A stretch of 64,000 bases of DNA from a virus. The position numbers and the translations under genes are program-made. The notes under the pieces were generated by a model. That model was given only the letters and a program-made list of their open reading frames with translations, was not told the DNA's origin and did no database searches. Below are positions 23,905-52,769 of the stretch, piece by piece. Position 1 is the stretch's first letter; every line of letters starts with the position of its first letter. The stretch covers positions 1-64,000 of IMG/VR virus record IMGVR_UViG_3300028563_000012; one strand, written 5' to 3'.

Positions 23905-25101
23905 CTAAAACTCCAAGCAACGTTTGTAGGCGCGCGACAATGATTCCATGGCCATGGCCATGGTTGGCATGCCGATATTCAACGGCGGCGTGATTTTGAT
24001 GGTGCCCGGCCCATCTCTGAACGTTGGGAGCAGCAGGCCCTCGGCCAATGCCTCGCGCTCCAACATGCGACGGTCAACAGGCACATCACAAGCAATCATC
24101 ATGCCGACTGCTCGCACTTGCCCCATGTCTGGGAATGAGTCGCGAGTTTCCAATGCAAACTTGGTGAAGGATCCGACCGAGATCACGCTGTCCAAGTTGC
24201 TTTGATTCTCCAACCAAGAGCACATCACGTTCACGAACGCATTGGACATTGGGTTGCCTCCGAATGTGCTGAAATGGGTGCCGGGCGTGAACGCGTTGCC
24301 CGCGTTGCCACGCGCCAAGGCCAGCCCCACAGGGAAGCCCATGCCGATGCCCTTGGCCAGACAGGTGATGTCGGGCTCAAGCCCAACGCGTTGTGCGTAA
24401 GTCGGTGCGCCAGTGCGTCCCGAGCCCGTCTGAACCTCATCGAAGATGAGCAAGCTGCCAACGCTGTGGGCCATGGCTTGGATGCTCTGCAACACTTCGG
24501 TTTCGTACGGCACGACATCATTGTTACCCATCACAGGTGCCATGATCACCGCGGCCAACGATGGTCCAAGGCTGATGATCATGTCACACATGCGCTCGAT
24601 GGGCGCGTGGATGAAGCCGCCTGGATAGGGGCCCATGCCTTCATAGTGATAAGATGGCCCATCACCCGCAGCAATGGCACCGTACGTCCGGCCGTGAAAG
24701 CCGCCCGACACGGACAAAATGTTGTTCCTTGGCGGGTTTGACAACTTTGCCTGCTTGTAATGGTACAAGCGCGCCATCTTGATGGCAGCTTCCACGGCCT
24801 CGGTTCCGCTATTGCACCAAAACACACGACTCGCGCCCATGAGCTTGCAGACCCGCTCGCTGACATAATTGCGCAATGGGTTGGTGTACAAGTTTGGAGC
24901 ATGGGCACCAAAATGGAAATCGGCCAGACATGACATGGCTTCGTTGATGCTTGCCCAAGACGTTCCCAAAGATGCTGTGCCTGTATCCGTGAACAAGTCG
25001 AGCAGCTTACGGCCGTCTGCGCGTACCAAGTACGGCCCATCAGCCCCAACGATGTTGAAATTTCTGAACTCAACTGTATCCATTAGATGGTTGGCCGTCA
25101 T
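23905..25101 (-). CDS. Class III PLP-dependent aminotransferase (ArgD/GSAM-like)
   Basis: A 398-residue fold-type I enzyme. FWCNSGTEAVEAAIKMAR (residues 94-111), GGFHGRTYGAIAA, IFDEVQTGSGRTG with Asp221 that holds the PLP ring nitrogen, and LAKGIGMG with the Schiff-base Lys250 are all present. The HFSTFGGNPMSNAF segment is typical of acetylornithine or ornithine aminotransferases. The usual Glu-Pro-x-Gln-Gly-Glu loop is replaced by APVMGNNDVV, implying changed substrate use. An AGAGGG site precedes the ATG. Candidate amine donors or acceptors are ornithine-like compounds or an aminoalkyl base adduct (inference). Confidence 0.88.
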   Translation of the reverse strand: MTANHLMDTVEFRNFNIVGADGPYLVRADGRKLLDLFTDTGTASLGTSWASINEAMSCLADFHFGAHAPNLYTNPLRNYVSERVCKLMGASRVFWCNSGTEAVEAAIKMARLYHYKQAKLSNPPRNNILSVSGGFHGRTYGAIAAGDGPSYHYEGMGPYPGGFIHAPIERMCDMIISLGPSLAAVIMAPVMGNNDVVPYETEVLQSIQAMAHSVGSLLIFDEVQTGSGRTGAPTYAQRVGLEPDITCLAKGIGMGFPVGLALARGNAGNAFTPGTHFSTFGGNPMSNAFVNVMCSWLENQSNLDSVISVGSFTKFALETRDSFPDMGQVRAVGMMIACDVPVDRRMLEREALAEGLLLPTFRDGPGTIKITPPLNIGMPTMAMAMESLSRAYKRCLEF

Positions 25102-27239: not shown

Positions 27240-27327
27240 GTCTTACGACTCCATTTCTATTGCCTTTCAACGCGTCACTTAGCGCTCGACGGTGCTCATC
27301 ATAGAACTTGTCAGAAGCGTTGATCAT
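27202..27327 (-). CDS. Possible 41-aa protein bridging two genes
   Basis: A short ORF (MINASDKFYDEHRRALSDAL...) beginning inside the end of the FAD-protein gene and ending inside the start of the MazG-HAD gene. It fills what would otherwise be a 71-base gap. The N-terminal half looks like a charged helix. There is no clear ribosome binding site, so support is positional only. Confidence 0.35.
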   Translation of the reverse strand: MINASDKFYDEHRRALSDALKGNRNGVVRRGRLGKNMAAAN

Positions 27328-28312
27328 GTGCCCACTGAATCATCTTTGTCAATGACTTTTCGGCAGTGGAGCGCGGATCCCATTCGGCGAAGCGTCCAAG
27401 CATGAGCCAGTTCTTCGGCAACACCAATGGGCCGGGCAACGGTTTGAGGTGCCCATTCAACACCCTTGGCTCTGACAATGTCTCCTGTACAAACATGTCG
27501 CGATCGGAACGATGCGAAAGCAGCGGCATCAAATCATCGGTGTCGAGTGGCTTGGGCGCATCGGGCTTGCCCCAAGGGATCTCAAGTTGGGCCGTGGTCG
27601 GACTCGTCTTGGTGATCCGTGACACGGTCGAAGCCAGCGGCGTGTACAGGTAATCCCACCACATGTCGGTTTGGATGCCGCTAACGTCCACAATGCTGAG
27701 CTTGTTGCAAGACGTGTCCGGGATGCCCGATTGGACGGTGAAAGGCACAATCTTCCTGAGAACGGGCAGCGGCAGCGTGTTGATCAAGAAATCATAAGGC
27801 ACATTTCGATCATGGACCGTGACGCTTTTGGCATCAACCCGTCGCACCCGAGCGAAGGTGTGAACCTTGCAAGACTCCTCGGCTTGTTTTGCCAGAGCAG
27901 CAACCACGACCGCATTATCACACCGAGCCGACCAATTGTGCTTCGACCCAGGATCATTCATGCAGTCGGCACGAAACCCTTCCAGTGATTTCCTCGTTTT
28001 CTTCCAGTGTGCCGTCTGAATCTGCAACCGATCCAAGGTGCTCATCCCCATGAGACACTCCGGATGGCTCTTTGCAACTCCGTCAATGTAAATGGCCCCA
28101 CGCGGCAGATGGAAACTGTAATGGATCCCCAAAGCGTCCAACATGTCTGACGCGTCCTTGGTCGCCCGCAGGTACTTCAGACCACCAGCCGCGAACGTTC
28201 CGCCCAATTTGTCGCCGGCCTCAATCAGCGTGACATCGACTCCGCCCTTGTTTTTCAAGACATGGGCCGCAATCAAGCCCGAGATCCCGCCACCCAAAAT
28301 TACAACTCTCAT
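27311..28312 (-). CDS. FAD-dependent amine-oxidase-like oxidoreductase
   Basis: A 333-residue flavoprotein. The start is set at the ATG 28312 because MRVVILGGGISGLIAA begins the Rossmann dinucleotide-binding motif and this ATG overlaps the upstream stop (ATGA). An Ala/Gly loop (GGTFAAGGLKYLRAT) follows. The C-terminal WLMLGRFAEWDPR resembles the second FAD-contact motif of amine oxidase/UDP-galactopyranose mutase-type proteins. Expected chemistry is oxidation of an amine or rearrangement using FAD; the substrate is unknown. Flavin amine oxidases occur in known thymine-hypermodification clusters, which makes its place next to the PLP enzyme and ThyX notable. Confidence 0.75.
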   Translation of the reverse strand: MRVVILGGGISGLIAAHVLKNKGGVDVTLIEAGDKLGGTFAAGGLKYLRATKDASDMLDALGIHYSFHLPRGAIYIDGVAKSHPECLMGMSTLDRLQIQTAHWKKTRKSLEGFRADCMNDPGSKHNWSARCDNAVVVAALAKQAEESCKVHTFARVRRVDAKSVTVHDRNVPYDFLINTLPLPVLRKIVPFTVQSGIPDTSCNKLSIVDVSGIQTDMWWDYLYTPLASTVSRITKTSPTTAQLEIPWGKPDAPKPLDTDDLMPLLSHRSDRDMFVQETLSEPRVLNGHLKPLPGPLVLPKNWLMLGRFAEWDPRSTAEKSLTKMIQWAHDQRF

Positions 28313-29349
28313 CGTGGCGCCTTTGCCAAATGACACATGATGGCGCGAATGTTGTCCATGCGAAGTTGCCCCGGAATGACATCGTTGACGCAACACTTGA
28401 ATGCCCCGTCGTTCCAAACGACGATGTCTGCCTTGACAATGCTTTGCAGCAAAGGATCTTCCTTCAGCATCGGCAATTGCACACGAAATCCCGGATCCCG
28501 AGTCCTGATGCGCCAGGATGCAAGCGGGCGACGCTTGGCGCCCGCGGCGATGGATTGATACACAGTCACGTAATCGGACTTGGTGGTGCGATCAATCATG
28601 TACAACTCACCGGGCGATGCTGAGTTTGCATCATGCGCAACCCCAACGTCGCAGAGCTTGGCCACCTCGACCATGATTGTTGCGACTTGTTTCACGGCAT
28701 CCGGGAAGCGGCCTGATGTGTGCTCGACTTTCAGTGTCACCGGCACTGCTTTGGCCTTCGTCTTTGGCGTTTGCTTGGCCGTCTTTTGCGCCAATAAGCG
28801 CTCTGTGAGTTGAACGATTTGCTCGGGTGACTTGCTCTTCAACATGTCTTGTTGGTTGCGATTGGTTGCCTCTGCGACCATTCGCAAAGCCGAGCAGCGT
28901 GAAAGCCAAGCGCAAGCAGGCTCCGTCAATTTCGTAGTCGGATTCACCCCGCCGATGCAAACATGATCAGGCTCGTTGAACCCGAGGCAAGGCGGAATAT
29001 CAACGTTGCTAGGCTGTTGCGCCTCAGACAACCCGGCAACCAAATCCAGGTACCAAGGAACGATCTTGGATAGATGCCCCACGGATGACGTGCTTTGCTT
29101 TAGCTTGCCAGTCGTTGCGTCGAATTGCCCCAAGATCACGACTGTGAAGTGCTGGCCACGCTTCAAATCCGACAAAAACACAACACTTCCCCAATCGTAC
29201 TCCTCAATGCATCTGCGCCATTCGATGGACTGCTGCCAATACAACGGGCTGGCATGAAACCCGTGTTTTGGAGAAGGATCCAAGCTGTGTTGCGCTATCA
29301 CATTGCGGACAAACGCCGCATCCATCTCATTCGGGTTGCTGTATACCAT
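28309..29349 (-). CDS. Unknown protein with central Cys cluster
   Basis: A 346-residue alpha/beta protein not recognised. A central block (CLGFNEPDHVC ... ACAWLSRC) has four Cys residues in an order like the C-terminal Cys cluster of the putative SSB (CFG...D...C...C). Flanking regions are beta-rich (DWGSVVFLSDLKRG, HFTVVILGQF), and the second half has helices then strands (GELYMIDRTTKSDYVTVYQS). It is translationally coupled to the FAD gene, so a linked role is likely. It does not look like a known DNA glycosylase or transferase. Confidence 0.6.
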   Translation of the reverse strand: MVYSNPNEMDAAFVRNVIAQHSLDPSPKHGFHASPLYWQQSIEWRRCIEEYDWGSVVFLSDLKRGQHFTVVILGQFDATTGKLKQSTSSVGHLSKIVPWYLDLVAGLSEAQQPSNVDIPPCLGFNEPDHVCIGGVNPTTKLTEPACAWLSRCSALRMVAEATNRNQQDMLKSKSPEQIVQLTERLLAQKTAKQTPKTKAKAVPVTLKVEHTSGRFPDAVKQVATIMVEVAKLCDVGVAHDANSASPGELYMIDRTTKSDYVTVYQSIAAGAKRRPLASWRIRTRDPGFRVQLPMLKEDPLLQSIVKADIVVWNDGAFKCCVNDVIPGQLRMDNIRAIMCHLAKAPR

Positions 29350-31630: not shown

Positions 31631-31831
31631 CTTATGCGAGAATCAGGCCGAAATGATGAAGTGGGATTTATGGCACTTAGCATGGCAATAATGCTATCAG
31701 CTACGAAAACTTTACGTGGCTGTTTGCCATCAGTGTTGGCAAAGATGCGCTTCGCGCATGAAATGCCAAAGGAATTGGCAAAGCGCCGTAAAACGTCGCC
31801 ATCTCGTCAAAGCGACGAAAAACGGCGGTCA
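31631..31831 (-). repeat. 201-bp duplicated structured block, copy A
   Basis: Matches 33632-33832 at 199 of 201 positions. Read on the minus strand it begins exactly at the TGA stop of the gene at 31829 and ends ten bases before the next gene. It can fold: nested stems 31784-31789 with 31822-31827 and 31794-31799 with 31812-31817, and a separate stem 31745-31750 with 31754-31759. One minus-strand frame is open for about 58 codons but has no good start. A structured 3-prime UTR RNA, a mobile fragment or a recombination scar are all possible. Confidence 0.9.
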
Positions 31832-33631: not shown

Positions 33632-33832
33632 CTTATGCGAGAATCAGGCCGAAATGGTGAAATGGGATTTATGGCACTTAGCATGGCAATAATGCTATCA
33701 GCTACGAAAACTTTACGTGGCTGTTTGCCATCAGTGTTGGCAAAGATGCGCTTCGCGCATGAAATGCCAAAGGAATTGGCAAAGCGCCGTAAAACGTCGC
33801 CATCTCGTCAAAGCGACGAAAAACGGCGGTCA
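33632..33832 (-). repeat. 201-bp duplicated structured block, copy B
   Basis: Nearly identical to 31631-31831, exactly 2001 bases away, differing only by two substitutions close together near 33657-33661. It begins at the TGA stop of the primase gene (33830-33832) on the minus strand and ends about ten bases before the AGGAGG of the next gene. The same hairpins as in copy A are present. Confidence 0.9.
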
Positions 33833-34852
33833 CCAAGCAATGGCCCGCATACGCATGCCGAGCGTGCAGATCGGGCGTTGGGATCGTTCCTCTTCTACGG
33901 CTGCCAAGGCCGCCAAGCGCGCCTCATCGGCCGGAACCGAGTTGGCATAGGACGCACGCAACTCCTCGGCCGTACTCTCACCCGGATCCTTGCGGCCGGC
34001 GGGGCAGTAAGCAACGCGGGTGCCAGGCAGCTTGCGAGCGATGCGAGCCGCGGACGTCAGTGCGTCGGCGGATCCGTCCAACATGACGGTCCATTTGGTC
34101 TTGCTGCTCGCCAGCATATCAAGTTGCTCGTCACGCAGGCGGAGGCCCATCAAGGCAACGGACGGGATCCCGGCTTGGTATGCCGCAAGGCAGTCAAATG
34201 GGCCTTCGACGATCAAGCCATCCTTGGTCCCGTCGAGCCCTTGCCACCCGTACAACAACCTGCCGGCATTGGGCCCGGCCTTGTAGCGCAAGTAGGCATC
34301 AGGTTTGATCGAGCGCGCTGTGAAGCTGCTCCCATTGGGGCAGACGATTGGCATGATGACTCGGTCCACGTACTCACCCGAGCGGCAGACTCCAAGGCCC
34401 ATGCGGCACGCAAGATCCCGGTCAAGCCCACGGCGCGTCAGGTACTTGGGCCACAGCCATTTCGTTCCGTCCCATAGCGGTTCGAATTCGGGTGGCAACG
34501 TTCCGTCGCGCTCGGGTTTCGTCTCGGCAACCGTGGCTTTCGTCGCGCTCGGGTTGATGCGCTTGAACTCGATGTGGCCGACGCGCCAAGCCCAGAGCAG
34601 TTTGCGCGCCTCATGCCACTCGATGCCGTCAACCTCGACCACCAGCTTCAGGATGGACAGCGACTTTTCATCGCAGGAAAAACAGATGAACCTTCCAGCT
34701 GGAAGGTCATTGCCATCAGAATCAACACCAGGTTCAGAATTGATGTACAAATGTTGACGTTTCATACACCATGGGCATTTCATGATGTACTCTGATCCCG
34801 AGCTGCGGCGGGCGCCCGCACCTTCCAGCCAATCAACCATGCCTTCGCTCAT
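33830..34852 (-). CDS. dnaG: DnaG-type DNA primase
   Basis: A 340-residue primase. The N-terminal zinc ribbon has Cys26/Cys29 (CPWC) and Cys57/Cys60 (CFSC). A TOPRIM domain has GLIVEGPFDCLAAY (Glu216, Asp220) and VMLDGSADAL. It synthesises RNA primers for the DnaE polymerase. The usual C-terminal helicase-interaction domain is not evident, so it is compact. The upstream gene is the DnaB-like helicase (four-base overlap), a normal phage pairing. Confidence 0.88.
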   Translation of the reverse strand: MSEGMVDWLEGAGARRSSGSEYIMKCPWCMKRQHLYINSEPGVDSDGNDLPAGRFICFSCDEKSLSILKLVVEVDGIEWHEARKLLWAWRVGHIEFKRINPSATKATVAETKPERDGTLPPEFEPLWDGTKWLWPKYLTRRGLDRDLACRMGLGVCRSGEYVDRVIMPIVCPNGSSFTARSIKPDAYLRYKAGPNAGRLLYGWQGLDGTKDGLIVEGPFDCLAAYQAGIPSVALMGLRLRDEQLDMLASSKTKWTVMLDGSADALTSAARIARKLPGTRVAYCPAGRKDPGESTAEELRASYANSVPADEARLAALAAVEEERSQRPICTLGMRMRAIAW

Positions 34853-36186
34853 GATGCCTCTGCTTGTGATTCGTCCGCTTCCGGTGATGTTTCTTGTGTG
34901 ATTTTGGCCACGGTGAAGTTGGTGGCAACACGAACCATGAAGCGGCTTGCTGATGAGCGTGCCTTGGCCACAAATAGGCTGCGCTTGTTGCCCATCTTCA
35001 CCTCAGCCACCGGTTGGCCGCGGTCGTTCAGCGGTGGATTTATGGAAATGATGGTGTCTGCGATACGTGCCTTGTCATAGCCCCAAGCTGCATTTTTGGA
35101 CGTCGCGATCTTGCCTTCTGACTCCTTGCCGGCTTGGATCACGGCCACGAGGAACACATTGGCATTTTTGGGATCGATCCAACCCTTCAACTGCTCGTAC
35201 AGCATCTTGTTGTACAGCGCAATGTTGTCCATGTTGGATGGCACTGCCAATTGGTCGGGCGAATCAAACACGATTTCATCGGGCACAAACCCTTCGCGCT
35301 TCAATCGCTCCACTTCCTTTTGTATTTCTGGCAACGTCGTGCTGGATACGCCGACATGGAGGATGCGCAGGTGTTTGTCCAGGTCAGTCTTGCGGCGCAT
35401 TGCCCAACTTTCCATGCCGGGTTGGAGACGTCGCCGCTGCAAGGATTTGGTCGGCTTGCCGCTGAAGCGGGCAACATAGCGCCAGCGGGTTGCGTCCTCA
35501 CCGTTTTCACTGTCGATGTGCAGAACGCGGTGCCCATGCTTCACAGCCGCATGACCGAAGTTCACTGCCAAAATGGACTTACCCATGTTGGTGTTGCCCA
35601 TGATGAGGCACATCTCACCCTTGGATCCACCGCCTTGAAGCTCTTCATCCAGCAACTCGAATCCGGTGGGGATGCCGCGCACCATCTCAGGGCCCTTTTG
35701 CCAATCATCCCAGTCAATCAAGCTCTTTGAGCGGATCCGCGGTGAGTTAGACACGGACTCGGCCGTGGCCCGGTTCATGACTTGGACGGCGCCCTCCAGG
35801 TTGCCCTTTTCCAGGTGCTTGTTGGCATGCTCGATGCCCGTAATCACCACGTCATGATGGAAACAGCGCAGCAGGAATTCACAGTCAGTTTTGAGTGATT
35901 CCGATGGCTCAATGTTGTATACAACCCGCAACACATCAGCCAGCGGAGCCTGCTGCTTCACAGGTTGCATGCGGATCATTCCCACCAGCGTTGAGACTGA
36001 TGGAGTCTCTGCCTTTTCATGGAATGATTTGAACTTTTCCCATATCCATGTCAAGCTTTCATCTGTCCATTGGTACGTGTCGAGCCATGACACCGCATCC
36101 ACCAACGCATCTCGGCTCTGCTTCGCCGCAGCGAGAACTTTCACCTCAACAGCACGTTGAGGATTGTCAATTTGTGTGATATCCAT
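34849..36186 (-). CDS. dnaB: DnaB-like replicative helicase
   Basis: A 445-residue RecA-fold helicase. The helical N-terminal domain (residues 1-150) is followed by GIPTGFELLDEEL, Walker A GNTNMGKS (197-204), and Walker B-like EIVFDSPDQLAV. A conserved region with AWGYDKARIADTI follows and the Glu/Ala tail ends the protein. It should unwind the fork as a hexamer with the primase next to it. Lies downstream of the putative initiator gene. Confidence 0.85.
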   Translation of the reverse strand: MDITQIDNPQRAVEVKVLAAAKQSRDALVDAVSWLDTYQWTDESLTWIWEKFKSFHEKAETPSVSTLVGMIRMQPVKQQAPLADVLRVVYNIEPSESLKTDCEFLLRCFHHDVVITGIEHANKHLEKGNLEGAVQVMNRATAESVSNSPRIRSKSLIDWDDWQKGPEMVRGIPTGFELLDEELQGGGSKGEMCLIMGNTNMGKSILAVNFGHAAVKHGHRVLHIDSENGEDATRWRYVARFSGKPTKSLQRRRLQPGMESWAMRRKTDLDKHLRILHVGVSSTTLPEIQKEVERLKREGFVPDEIVFDSPDQLAVPSNMDNIALYNKMLYEQLKGWIDPKNANVFLVAVIQAGKESEGKIATSKNAAWGYDKARIADTIISINPPLNDRGQPVAEVKMGNKRSLFVAKARSSASRFMVRVATNFTVAKITQETSPEADESQAEAS

Positions 36187-36195
36187 GGCTTGGGG

Positions 36196-37593
36196 CTAAA
36201 AAATCCTGACAGCTTCACCTTCCCACATGCACCACTCCTGCCCGTTAGCATCTTTCCACAGCCCTGTCGGCATGTTGGGGTTGGGACGGTCTTTGGGGTG
36301 GACGTAATCGCGCACTGCCACCCCAAAGGCGCCAGCCAAACTTGAAAGCTGAATGAATTTCAGATGTTTCGGCTTGGACTCATTGGCTCTGTGGATGAAT
36401 TCCTCTTGCGTCACAGCCTGATCTTCAAGCCAGCATGCCAGCCAATTTTTCACAGCTAGTTTGGCATGCTCGGTGGTTGATGTGTTGTTGGCCAAGTCGT
36501 ATTCAGACGTTGTCTTGCCGGTAGTCTCAGACCACAGCTTGCGGTAAGCAGCCATGAAGCTCTTGGCCATGGTGGAAAACATCGCCTCTTTCAGGCGCTT
36601 GTACATCGGCGTCCGGAGTAGCTTGCGCACGTCTTCCGGCGGTAGGAGCATCGCTTTGGCGGAGATGTGCATGGTGTTCGCGATTGTGCCGTCGCTCAGC
36701 CGGGCCGTGATCTTGCCTTCGCCGTCTTCCGGCGGAGGAAGCGAGCCGGTGACGAGTCCGGGGTGCCTTGTTGTGCGTTGGATGCGGCCGCGCTCTGCCT
36801 TGGTCTTGCGTTCGACTGCTTCAGCCAGTGTGTGTGCATCCGACTTCGGCGCTGCTGCCGCTGCGCTGACGAGATCCGAGCGAAGCGAGGATCGAGGAAC
36901 AAGAGGAAGGCTTGAAGGATCTTTCTGCTTTTTCTTACTTTCTGCAGAGTTAGCTTTACTTAGCGTCGGGGAAACAGCGCGGCGCGGCGTGAAAGAAACT
37001 CTTTCGTCACTTGGCTTTGTTGGCAATTGCGGCTTGGAAACTCTTTCGTCACTGGAAACTCTTTCGTCACTGGGACGAAACTCTTTCGTCACTTGGCTTT
37101 GTTGGCGAATGTGACTTGGAAACTCTTTCGTCACTGGAAACTCTTTCGTCACTTGGCTTTGTTGGAGAATGTGACTTGGAAACTCTTTCGTCACTGGAAA
37201 CTCTTTCGTCACTTGGCTTTGTTGGAGAATGTGACTTGGAAACTCTTTCGTCACTGGAAATTGTTGGAGAATGCGACTTGGAAACTCTTTCGTCACTGGA
37301 AACTCTTTCGTCACTGGAAATTGTTGGAGAATGTACGTCCTAAAGACAACCCCGGCCGTGACTGACATCGTCCAGCTTTTTTGGAATCCTGTTGGGCGCA
37401 CGGCTTTGATGCTCACAGCGCCAGCATCTGTCCATTTGTCCATGAGTTTACGTAAAGTCACATGGCTGATCCCGAGCGCTGACGCTTGCTGCTCTTGGGT
37501 GGTTTCCTTGTGATTCATCCGCATCCACTTGCGAATAATAGGCACATCATTGATGGGTTTTGGTCCGCGCTTCGTCATGTGGTCGTTTTCCAT
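36196..37593 (-). CDS. Putative replication initiator (HTH plus repeat linker)
   Basis: A 465-residue protein. Residues about 1-75 hold a helix-turn-helix (EQQASALGISHVTLRKLMDK). Then comes a repetitive linker in which VTKEFP recurs, coded by the 15-bp DNA repeats, then a basic low-complexity stretch and a C-terminal helical domain (residues about 270-465). The layout, with origin-like repeats inside the gene followed by helicase and primase genes, recalls lambda O and similar phage initiators, but no sequence similarity is claimed. ATG 37593 is used; ATG 37578 is possible. Confidence 0.55.
   Translation of the reverse strand: MENDHMTKRGPKPINDVPIIRKWMRMNHKETTQEQQASALGISHVTLRKLMDKWTDAGAVSIKAVRPTGFQKSWTMSVTAGVVFRTYILQQFPVTKEFPVTKEFPSRILQQFPVTKEFPSHILQQSQVTKEFPVTKEFPSHILQQSQVTKEFPVTKEFPSHIRQQSQVTKEFRPSDERVSSDERVSKPQLPTKPSDERVSFTPRRAVSPTLSKANSAESKKKQKDPSSLPLVPRSSLRSDLVSAAAAAPKSDAHTLAEAVERKTKAERGRIQRTTRHPGLVTGSLPPPEDGEGKITARLSDGTIANTMHISAKAMLLPPEDVRKLLRTPMYKRLKEAMFSTMAKSFMAAYRKLWSETTGKTTSEYDLANNTSTTEHAKLAVKNWLACWLEDQAVTQEEFIHRANESKPKHLKFIQLSSLAGAFGVAVRDYVHPKDRPNPNMPTGLWKDANGQEWCMWEGEAVRIF
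36996..37314. repeat. Eleven iteron-like 15-bp repeats (candidate origin)
   Basis: Eleven copies of AAACTCTTTCGTCAC start at 36996, 37038, 37056, 37078, 37120, 37138, 37180, 37198, 37240, 37282 and 37300. Several come as pairs 18 bp apart, and blocks repeat at 60 bp (37120, 37180, 37240). All copies have the same orientation. They lie inside the putative initiator gene and code its VTKEF linker. Direct iterons of this kind are initiator-binding sites in many phage and plasmid origins. Confidence 0.85.
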
Positions 37594-37607: not shown

Positions 37608-38042
37608 TCAATTCCAGTACAAGCCCAACTTTTTCTCTTCTTGGCGCCAACGTTTCATCTTCTCAGCATTGTACTGGGCTGACTGCCTTGCTGCTCTTTG
37701 CATCTCGCGATGTCGAGTCTCAGGGCTGCGAAGATCCTCCATCAGGCCGATGTTGATGTAAAGCAATTCGCCGAAATTCGGGAACTCAGCGACAACCCGC
37801 GTTAGATGGAGGTGAGGGATCCCCTCGACCATCTTGATGAGCCCGCGGCGCTTCCATCCAGATACGAGCTTGGCGAGATGGTGGAGCGAGATGCGCAAGG
37901 CATGGGCTTGCTCAAGCTGGTTCAACCGGGCATGGTCCAGGAACATGTAGGCATGGAACCATCCGTGGTTGTCCTTGTCCTTCGGTGTCCTGGTTTTGCG
38001 TCGTCTCATGGCATTGAGGTAAAAGCGGGGAGTGTGACTCAA
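37608..38042 (-). CDS. HTH-type DNA-binding protein, paralogue-like
   Basis: A 144-residue basic protein. QLEQAHALRISLHHLAKL followed by GWKRRGLIKM has the same helix-turn-helix spacing as the N-terminus of the next gene (EQQASALGISHVTLRKLMDK). This suggests a related winged-helix domain. The TTG at 38042 overlaps an upstream TGA (TTGA); ATG 38009 is an alternative. It may regulate or assist the initiator. Confidence 0.6.
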   Translation of the reverse strand: MSHTPRFYLNAMRRRKTRTPKDKDNHGWFHAYMFLDHARLNQLEQAHALRISLHHLAKLVSGWKRRGLIKMVEGIPHLHLTRVVAEFPNFGELLYINIGLMEDLRSPETRHREMQRAARQSAQYNAEKMKRWRQEEKKLGLYWN

Positions 38043-38110
38043 CCCCCATCTGTGGCAGCTCGCCTCCGCATGACAGAGCTGTTTATCGATTCCACAAAGT
38101 CACACTCCCC
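38027..38110. promoter_or_regulatory. 13-bp inverted repeat, operator-like
   Basis: Arms GGGGAGTGTGACT (38027-38039) and AGTCACACTCCCC (38098-38110) are perfect inverted copies 58 bases apart. They lie around the start of the HTH gene. Such spaced inverted repeats are typical of repressor or initiator sites. A long-loop RNA hairpin is also possible. Confidence 0.55.
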
Positions 38111-38158: not shown

Positions 38159-38204
38159 GCGGGGTATCTATTTTGCGGCTGCGACGGCGATGAGGGCAAG
38201 ATAT

Positions 38205-39623
38205 TCAGATCACGTTGACTGTAAAGCCTCGTAATCCTTTGTATAATCGCAGCTTGTTCAACGAGTGTGCCGCAAGATGACGTTGCCCGATGTCCATCAC
38301 ATCATAGAATTTCACACTAGTCTTGCCATGATGTGGGGTAAGGTTGCGCATGCGCTGGATGGCCGCAACCTCACTTTTCTGGCCTTCTGCGTTGATAACA
38401 ACTTCAATCTCGGGGATGTCAATGCCTTCGCCGAACACGGTGCCAATCAACACTTGGATATCACCTGCCTGGAATGCTTCAATCAACTTCCATCTCTTTG
38501 CAGATGGTGTTTTGCCGTGAACAACTTCGGCTTCCACGCCCATCGCGCTGATGTATCCGTACAGCTCCTTCATCTGGTCCAAGCGGCCGGTGTCTATTAG
38601 CACCCGCGTGCCTTCCCTGGCATGTTTCACGGCGACATCAGCCAAGAGCTTGTTGCGTGGCCTGCACGTGGCAACGCAGTCACGTACGACACGCTGCCAT
38701 GACCACCCTTTTACGCTTTGAGGGTGCTGAAAGCGTAGGAATGTGATATTGGGCGCCATGATCATCCCGGCCTTGATCAGGCGGCCCATCGATACACGGT
38801 ACAAGATCCCGCCGGTAACCGCCTTCATCCAGATGTTGGCGCTCTGATTCTCACGCAAGCGAGACACGAACACCGTGGCAGATAGGCCGATCTTGAACCA
38901 GGCATCACATTGCATGGCGATGTTGCGCCAAGCGGGCCCTTCCATGTGGTGATTTTCATCCACGAATAGCAAGTCAACGTTGGCCAATAGCCAAATGATA
39001 TCGGACTTGTGCTTGGATGAACCCAGGCCTGCCAAGAGCGATTGGATGGTGGCCACGGTCACCATCTCTTTCGTGTCGTATTCACCTTCACCAACCATCC
39101 CAATTTGGAATTCTTGGCCAAAGCACTCCTTGAATGCATTGATGGTCTGCCCGAGCAACAAATCAGATGGAACCACGAACAATGTGCGGCAACCCAAAGC
39201 CCGAGCGAGCGCGGCCGCGGTGCGTGTTTTGCCCGAGCGGATCGGCAGGTTGAGAATGCCTTTGCCTGAAAACACCCCACGATTCTTGAGAGCAGCCTTC
39301 ACCGCGGCTGATTGGTAGTCACGCAGTGGTTGGACGAGCCAAGGTGCCGTCCAAAGTCCCAAGGTTGGCTTGCGCCGCATGTCAACCATTTCGGCGCCGG
39401 GAAACTCAGCGCACACCTCGGACATCACACCCGTCGGAGCGATGTGATAATCGCCCTTGCGTGATTTTCGCAACAAATGCTCTCGCCCGTCCCAATATCC
39501 GTTGCGATATGCGTCACTGAATTCAGCACCGGCAACAGGATACGATGTCAGATCGTCAACCTGTTTCATCTCATCTTCGGTGCCCCAAACACGGCTCAAC
39601 GTGTTGGTTACTTCGACTTTCAT
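38205..39623 (-). CDS. UvsW-like SF2 helicase
   Basis: A 472-residue superfamily 2 helicase. Walker A LPIRSGKTRTAAALA, motif II FVDENHHMEG (DENH), motif III GLSATVFVS, and in the second RecA domain VLIGTVFGEGIDIPE and AAIQRMRNLTPH for motifs V and VI. The N-terminal region before the ATPase resembles the DNA-clasp part of T4 UvsW. Expected work: branch migration and annealing in recombination-dependent replication. The start at ATG 39623 lies just beyond the terminator. Confidence 0.85.
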   Translation of the reverse strand: MKVEVTNTLSRVWGTEDEMKQVDDLTSYPVAGAEFSDAYRNGYWDGREHLLRKSRKGDYHIAPTGVMSEVCAEFPGAEMVDMRRKPTLGLWTAPWLVQPLRDYQSAAVKAALKNRGVFSGKGILNLPIRSGKTRTAAALARALGCRTLFVVPSDLLLGQTINAFKECFGQEFQIGMVGEGEYDTKEMVTVATIQSLLAGLGSSKHKSDIIWLLANVDLLFVDENHHMEGPAWRNIAMQCDAWFKIGLSATVFVSRLRENQSANIWMKAVTGGILYRVSMGRLIKAGMIMAPNITFLRFQHPQSVKGWSWQRVVRDCVATCRPRNKLLADVAVKHAREGTRVLIDTGRLDQMKELYGYISAMGVEAEVVHGKTPSAKRWKLIEAFQAGDIQVLIGTVFGEGIDIPEIEVVINAEGQKSEVAAIQRMRNLTPHHGKTSVKFYDVMDIGQRHLAAHSLNKLRLYKGLRGFTVNVI

Positions 39624-39638
39624 CTTGGATATTCTTTG

Positions 39639-51017: not shown

Positions 51018-52769
51018 TCACAGCGAATGGCAAGCAGATGTGACCAATGATGACACCGTTGCGCCCGAGTACACTGTGGAATCTATGCGCACATCCTCAA
51101 TCAGACCATACCATTGACGGGTGGTGGTTCCGTAGTCAGCACCGATGACGTATGCCCCGTGTGTGCTCCAATAGAGCGCTGTGTTTGCTGCCGTCGTGCC
51201 TGTGCTCACGGCATAACCATCGACGTAGCCAACAATTGCGCCAGTTGAGTATTTATATGTGAATCCGATATGGTGCCAAGTTCCAACAAACAAATTCTCA
51301 GTCACCCCAAGGCTGACACCCGTTTCAACTCCTGATGGTTGCGTCCAAAAGTCGAAATACCACTGATTGGTGTTGTTGCCGTTGCCGTTGAAGCGCATAC
51401 ACCAAGCATAAGAACCTCCAGATGAGTTTTGCTCTTTCCCTAGCAGAATCGCCCACTGTGCGCTGAAGACAACTTTGACCCAAGCGAAAACGCTGAGATC
51501 GTTGGATTCGCCAAGAGACGTCGTGGTTGTCCGAAGCAATCCCTTGTTGTCAGATGAAACAGCCTCAAGAGCAGCAGCCGTGCCGTATGCGCCATTGCGG
51601 CGCGTAACGTTGGCTGTGCTGTATACGCTGAGGGCGAGCGTCCCGGCTGTACCGATGTTAGCAAAAGGTGGACCGCTGGTGAAATCCCAATAGATTGGAA
51701 CACTGCTGTAACTTGGCCTTGTTGGTGTGCAACCACCCCCGCTTCCCGCGGGCGTGGCCCATGCTCCCGAGCCGTTCAGAAAGTGCGCAGCGTTGCCGTC
51801 GCCCTGTGGAGCAAAACCTGGCAGACTTGTCGTCATGTTTTGGCCCGTGGCTGTCGTGATGCTCAGCAGAGATGCAGGGACGTTGGCCAATACGGCCTTG
51901 GGGCTGTTTGATGTCGAGACGCTGGTTGCTGTCGTGGTGACGGTGCCTGAACTCCAAGCCACGTTGCCATCAGCGTACAATGTCACAGCAGGCCCGGCTG
52001 GCCCTGTTGGGCCCTGGATGTTGCCGTTCAACGTCCAACTTCCGCCCGCGCCGCCCGCGCCGAGCGAGTAGACATTCCCAACGGCTCCACCGCCCGCGCT
52101 GGTTTCGAGATAGTAGTCACCAGAGACAGAACCACCAACGCTCGATGGAGGGTTGGCGCCCGTCCACCACTTCGCGCCAGGCGTCCCGTTTGTGCCATTG
52201 GTTCCGTTAGTTCCGTTTGTGCCAGTTGTCCCTGTGGCACCCTTGATGTTGCCGACGGAGCTGCCCCAACTTCCGCCCGTTCCGGTCATCGTGTAGACAT
52301 CGCCAGTCGTGGTGTTGAGATAGTAGTCGCCCGAGATCGATCCGCCCACGCCGCTGGGCACCCCTGCAGCTTCCCACCACTTCGATCCAGGTGCGCCATT
52401 CGTTCCATTGGCCCCATTGGTCCCGTTTGTGCCATTGGTTCCAGGCGATCCATTGGTTCCGTTTGTGCCGTTAGTTCCCGATGGCCCTTTGATGTTGGCT
52501 ATGGCGCCGCCGCCCCACGTGCCGCTGGCATGCTGCCAAACATTCCCAGTTGCTGTATCAAGGTACAGGTCACCATCATTTGCGCTCACCGCTGGTGCCC
52601 CGCTGCCGGTGAACCAGTGATTTGCTGTCCCACCAGGGATGAGCGACGGGTCAATGGTTCCAGCCGGGCACGACGTCCGCACAAATTGCTGATAGCACGT
52701 GGCGTGTGAAAATGAATCCACAAGCAGAGACAACAATACTCCACCCAATACGGCAAACGTCTTTTTCAT
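51018..52769 (-). CDS. Secreted collagen-like protein with C-terminal LamG domain
   Basis: A 583-residue protein. It starts MKKTFAVLGGVLLSLLVDSF, a signal peptide, overlapping the upstream stop. Repeated linkers like GDYYLNTTTGDVY and WGSSVGNIKG alternate with GTNGTNG-type collagen-like repeats. The C-terminal third (residues about 370-583) is LamG-like (FAWVKVVFSAQWAILL, GTWHHIGFTYKYSTGAIVGY). The signal peptide is odd for a virion protein and suggests export to the envelope or an altered start. A GGAGG site precedes the ATG. Confidence 0.7.
   Translation of the reverse strand: MKKTFAVLGGVLLSLLVDSFSHATCYQQFVRTSCPAGTIDPSLIPGGTANHWFTGSGAPAVSANDGDLYLDTATGNVWQHASGTWGGGAIANIKGPSGTNGTNGTNGSPGTNGTNGTNGANGTNGAPGSKWWEAAGVPSGVGGSISGDYYLNTTTGDVYTMTGTGGSWGSSVGNIKGATGTTGTNGTNGTNGTNGTPGAKWWTGANPPSSVGGSVSGDYYLETSAGGGAVGNVYSLGAGGAGGSWTLNGNIQGPTGPAGPAVTLYADGNVAWSSGTVTTTATSVSTSNSPKAVLANVPASLLSITTATGQNMTTSLPGFAPQGDGNAAHFLNGSGAWATPAGSGGGCTPTRPSYSSVPIYWDFTSGPPFANIGTAGTLALSVYSTANVTRRNGAYGTAAALEAVSSDNKGLLRTTTTSLGESNDLSVFAWVKVVFSAQWAILLGKEQNSSGGSYAWCMRFNGNGNNTNQWYFDFWTQPSGVETGVSLGVTENLFVGTWHHIGFTYKYSTGAIVGYVDGYAVSTGTTAANTALYWSTHGAYVIGADYGTTTRQWYGLIEDVRIDSTVYSGATVSSLVTSACHSL

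Follow-up and report, generated by a model that had tools for sequence, protein, structure and literature searches.

Eleven identical copies of a 17-bp iteron were found inside one open reading frame next to the replicative helicase gene of this phage. The array is probably the phage replication origin, carried within the gene of its own initiator, with the iterons bound by the HTH domain that the same gene encodes. The window analysed here covers the first 64 kb of a virus record 102,534 bp long; the remaining 38.5 kb were read too. Most genes of the window, the replication block included, are on the minus strand. Coordinates of the features are collected in Table 1.

Table 1. Features of the iteron locus, in window coordinates, with the evidence for each.
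Feature	Position	Strand	Evidence
Array of 11 identical 17-bp iterons GAAACTCTTTCGTCACT	36995..37315	+	exact-copy and tandem-repeat searches
Iteron-bearing ORF (candidate replication initiator, 460 aa), with an N-terminal HTH, a linker encoded by the repeats and a C-terminal domain	36196..37578	-	single open frame, HTH_Crp_2, position
N-terminal HTH domain, candidate iteron reader	37390..37578	-	HTH_Crp_2 match, paralogue
C-terminal domain, candidate helicase-loading/oligomerisation part	36196..36900	-	weak resemblance to the Rep core in phages with this gene order
Helically unstable stretch, 66% AT, candidate DNA unwinding element	36912..36962	.	33 bp beyond array, C-terminal-domain side
133-aa HTH protein, paralogous to the HTH domain of the ORF	37608..38009	-	Smith-Waterman, identical columns
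UvsW-like helicase	38205..39626	-	phrog_16 E 4e-59; ResIII/Helicase_C
DnaB-like replicative helicase	34849..36186	-	phrog_19 E 4e-36; DnaB_C
DNA primase (TOPRIM)	33830..34852	-	phrog_47 E 1.5e-35; Toprim_2

Layout and uniqueness of the iteron array

All eleven copies of GAAACTCTTTCGTCACT are exact, with no differences among them. An earlier note on this DNA had described eleven identical 15-bp direct repeats, set in pairs 18 bp apart within a 60-bp super-period. The copy number stands, while the invariant unit measures 17 bp rather than 15, and a G at position 19 is likewise invariant. Copies start on the plus strand at 36995, 37037, 37055, 37077, 37119, 37137, 37179, 37197, 37239, 37281 and 37299, giving successive spacings of 42, 18, 22, 42, 18, 42, 18, 42, 42 and 18 bp. 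Pairing at 18 bp describes four pairs but not the three single copies, and the 60-bp period is confined to the middle of the array (approximately 37053-37260; 3.4 copies by TRF).

No iteron with one to three mismatches and no reverse iteron was found elsewhere in the window, and the exact 17-mer has no occurrence outside the array in the whole 102,534-bp record. Over the same 102.5 kb a repeat detector returned this array as the sole strong one, together with one weak coding repeat (52386-52478). The detector gave no array between 64 and 102 kb, where further scans yielded just a 25-bp minor repeat. Separately, a 99-bp tandem repeat of 1.8 copies lies at 543-722, near the record end. Four other IMG/VR contigs, from other samples, carry the identical array, which argues against an assembly error.

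The iterons were also inspected for dyad symmetry. GAAA/TTTC arms of 4 bp are present in every copy; this level of four out of ten pairs is also reached by 22% of random sites, and eight out of ten is reached by the copy at 37077 only. For most copies the dyad is no better than chance.

Gene order around the array

The genes run in the order UvsW-like helicase, 133-aa HTH protein, iteron-bearing ORF, DnaB-like helicase and primase. Both of the last two were identified downstream by PHROG and Pfam profiles, in agreement with the position directly upstream of helicase and primase that the note had given. No Rfam family was found in 30-42 kb. Two further repeats were seen in this region. A perfect 13-bp inverted repeat, GGGGAGTGTGACT / AGTCACACTCCCC (38027-38039 and 38098-38110, 58 bp apart), lies between the UvsW-like and 133-aa HTH genes. 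A 200-bp direct repeat, 99% identical (31631-31831 and 33632-33832), flanks two genes, and two IMG/VR contigs from this phage terminate beside its 33632-33832 copy.

Iteron-bearing ORF and its HTH paralogue

The array lies, as had been claimed, inside coding sequence: one minus-strand ORF (37578-36196) stays open through its whole length. The first 63 residues of this ORF resemble an HTH domain (Pfam HTH_Crp_2, E 0.0046, under the curated cut-off). Alignment of this domain with the adjoining 133-aa protein gave a Smith-Waterman z of 7.9, with none of 200 shuffles scoring as high, and 19 identical columns. The sub-threshold profile match and the clear paralogue together bear out the description of the product as HTH-bearing. 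The stand-alone protein (37608-38009) and the HTH domain of the ORF (37390-37578) are tandem paralogues.

Searches of phages, IMG/VR, bacterial genomes, PDB, PHROGs and Pfam returned homologues of the ORF from the same phage only; it matched no PHROG, no Pfam replication family and no solved relative, and PHROG and Pfam searches with the C-terminal domain gave no family match. Its position suggests that the ORF encodes the initiator.

Two related HTH proteins encoded side by side could also serve an array of operators, through which the HTH domain of the ORF or the 133-aa protein would control transcription of the replication operon, with no origin there. Identical sites in many copies fit cooperative repression, and helicase and primase are encoded downstream of the array. 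An operator normally overlaps a promoter, however, and a promoter-like scan gave no site within the array or immediately downstream of it; minus-strand promoter candidates were placed at 38198-38329, with promoter matches near chance. Eleven sites within coding sequence are also many for operators, and this explanation is considered unlikely.

Comparison with other phage loci

The slot between the UvsW-like and DnaB-like helicase genes holds an HTH/Rep gene in SPO1 (gp20.1), Goe26, Exiguobacterium phage EalM-132 and CM1, and likewise in Moonbeam (where one small ORF intervenes), A511, EF24C, Twort, G1 and Remus. The same holds for IMG/VR contigs L046, L077 and L144, and for L057, which has an extra small ORF. 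The Herelleviridae Rep or 'HTH DNA binding protein' (phrog_1098, phrog_14232) thus occupies the slot of the iteron-bearing ORF, and its HTH is N-terminal in most members. The order UvsW-like helicase, Rep, DnaB-like helicase is shared, and the window adds one gene to it, that of the 133-aa HTH protein. In L057 (1109-3616) the UvsW-like helicase itself is apparently interrupted by an intein (CLSPTTRVQTATGW... to ...VLVSN).

Comparison of the ORF with Herelleviridae Rep profiles gave an hhalign probability below 1% and no significant sequence similarity. A motif shared with Rep had been noticed by eye, and on testing it proved marginal: core scores of the C-terminal domain against Rep ranked 12 and 6 among 2000 shuffled controls, the rank from the second profile being generous because that profile was picked after inspection. 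This weak resemblance of the ORF core to Herelleviridae Rep is suggestive only.

The Rep genes of the syntenic phages contain no repeat arrays, so the array is not general to this slot. Nor was a comparable array found upstream of helicase or primase in 95 comparison loci or in 39 further loci fetched with the primase (about 130 in all). Arrays flagged in L143 and L166 were rejected as coding repeats in other genes, and those flagged in L139 and L140 are separated from the primase match by thousands of bases.

Other genes of the record drew attention in passing. An 806-aa protein (L116:5933-8353; record 69933-72353) matches head maturation protease profiles at residues 685-804 and RNA ligase profiles at 123-287, matches that possibly reflect a shared inserted domain. 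A 556-aa head protein (L116:8596-10266) has an ADP-ribosyltransferase profile match at its C-terminus. ORFs 23905-25101 and 27311-28417 of the window resemble, by reading, a class III aminotransferase and an FAD/NAD-dependent oxidoreductase, which would be unusual cargo amid phage nucleotide-metabolism genes.

Conservation of the iteron as DNA

The iteron is read as VTKEFP in eight of the eleven copies and, after the 22-bp step, in another frame as SDERVS in the other three. The note's VTKEFP linker, shaped by the repeat, is accordingly correct for the eight and incorrect for the three. Since the copies are read in two frames, the identity of the DNA cannot be due to either peptide. The 17-mer is constant in every copy, synonymous positions included, and the spacers vary: no differences were counted at 187 iteron positions, against 11 differences from consensus at 130 positions of five long spacers (Fisher p 4e-5; a hand calculation that treats the clustered changes in the fifth spacer as a single event gives a weaker contrast, about 0.002). 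If recent amplification were the whole cause, spacers should match one another as closely as iterons do, and the contrast therefore points to selection on the DNA word. The 17-mer looks selected as DNA, not as peptide.

These observations bear on the possibility that the array is a coding minisatellite, a flexible linker grown by slippage or unequal recombination in which the DNA itself has no role. Several properties favour such a linker. All spacings except one are divisible by three, the array contains near-identical blocks (60 and 102 bp) of the kind that recent duplication produces, and similar coding repeats occur in other phage genes (those of L143 and L166, and 52386-52478 in the window). 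Against it, the 17-mer is invariant although the spacers vary, and three copies in another frame encode a different peptide; there is no array-wide peptide conservation. The frame switch and the iteron/spacer contrast oppose a minisatellite most directly, and there is little probability that one accounts for the array.

Iteron centromeres are bound by small HTH or RHH adaptors, and a small HTH protein is encoded beside this array, but a partition or counting site of that type, read by the 133-aa protein, is very improbable, as no ParA/TubZ-type motor was recognised by PHROG or Pfam in the gene block examined and the neighbours are replication enzymes.

Unstable stretch and GC skew

The helically unstable stretch beside the array ranks in the top 0.03% of 50-bp windows for instability and as the fifth least stable locus of the 102.5-kb record. 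Read in the coding direction, the HTH domain comes first, followed by the iterons, the unstable stretch and the C-terminal domain. Three unstable stretches of similar depth are present in 36.0-38.2 kb, the other two at most 1.3 kb from this one, so that the instability is supporting and not decisive.

GC skew was calculated in two ways. With all positions a shift was located near 33-37 kb (block permutation p 0.01); at fourfold-degenerate sites the strongest shift was at 55 kb. Change points of GC skew were rejected as an origin marker, the outcome depending on the sites used. Because the fourfold sites point to 55 kb, skew lends the origin no independent support.

Comparison with lambda and SPP1

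The origin of lambda lies in the middle of gene O, where four iterons, or six in Stx phages, precede an AT-rich region of 39 bp; this origin separates the DNA-binding N-terminus of O from the P-binding C-terminus, and extra iterons in gene O add residues to the protein (PMC7466680, PMC6022878). The locus described here is similar in that iterons lie in the coding sequence of the candidate initiator, between its N- and C-terminal parts and beside an AT-rich stretch, in the same order. It differs in that the iterons of lambda (four) and Stx phages (six) are non-identical 18-bp sequences with hyphenated dyad symmetry, whereas here there are eleven identical 17-mers, in two frames, with just the 4-bp GAAA/TTTC dyad in most copies. 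The iteron-bearing ORF gave no family match to lambda O (PHROG, Pfam). The earlier comparison with lambda O, as a protein whose gene likewise holds its own origin, applies to domain order and anatomy and does not extend to protein family, copy number, copy identity or the use of two frames.

In SPP1, oriL consists of direct repeats and an AT-rich unwinding element within initiator gene 38, and the initiator acts together with a helicase of the DnaB family (PMC6316719). The direct repeats and easily unwound stretch inside the gene of the candidate initiator, together with the encoded DnaB-like helicase, resemble this arrangement. Unlike SPP1, in which gp39 serves as a separate loader and oriR as a second origin, this phage has no loader gene between ORF and helicase, and its record contains no second array. 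No family match links the ORF to gp38.

Proposed mechanism and implications

Direct repeats within an ORF, an adjacent easily unwound stretch and an adjoining replicative helicase gene are the marks of an iteron origin embedded in an initiator gene, and all three are present here. Such an origin is favoured by where the array lies, by the conservation of its DNA irrespective of frame, by the unstable stretch next to it and by a domain order like that of lambda. The proposal that the repeats could be the phage origin is to that extent supported, though in part, skew being silent and the protein having no homologue of known function.

Binding, strand opening, helicase recruitment and origin firing are steps that we infer. 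The N-terminal HTH domain would bind the eleven 17-bp iterons, perhaps aided by the paralogous 133-aa HTH protein. The assembled complex would strain and then open the unstable stretch. The C-terminal domain would then recruit the DnaB-like helicase encoded next, and primase would follow.

More tentatively, with somewhat less than an even chance, the ORF may represent an undescribed initiator family, a positional equivalent of Herelleviridae Rep without detectable homology to it. In such a family the origin would have been internalised as eleven invariant two-frame iterons, and may be regulated by the duplicated HTH domain next door.

To our knowledge, the replication start sites of large environmental phages are mostly unknown. 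Origins embedded in initiator genes are already known from lambda and SPP1, and the best reading of this locus is that one is present in an unrelated protein and phage. If this is right, an origin can be seen in the sequence of a phage with a Herelleviridae-like replication block, and the initiator-embedded origin extends past the protein families of lambda O and SPP1 gp38, which would point to the arrangement having arisen repeatedly.
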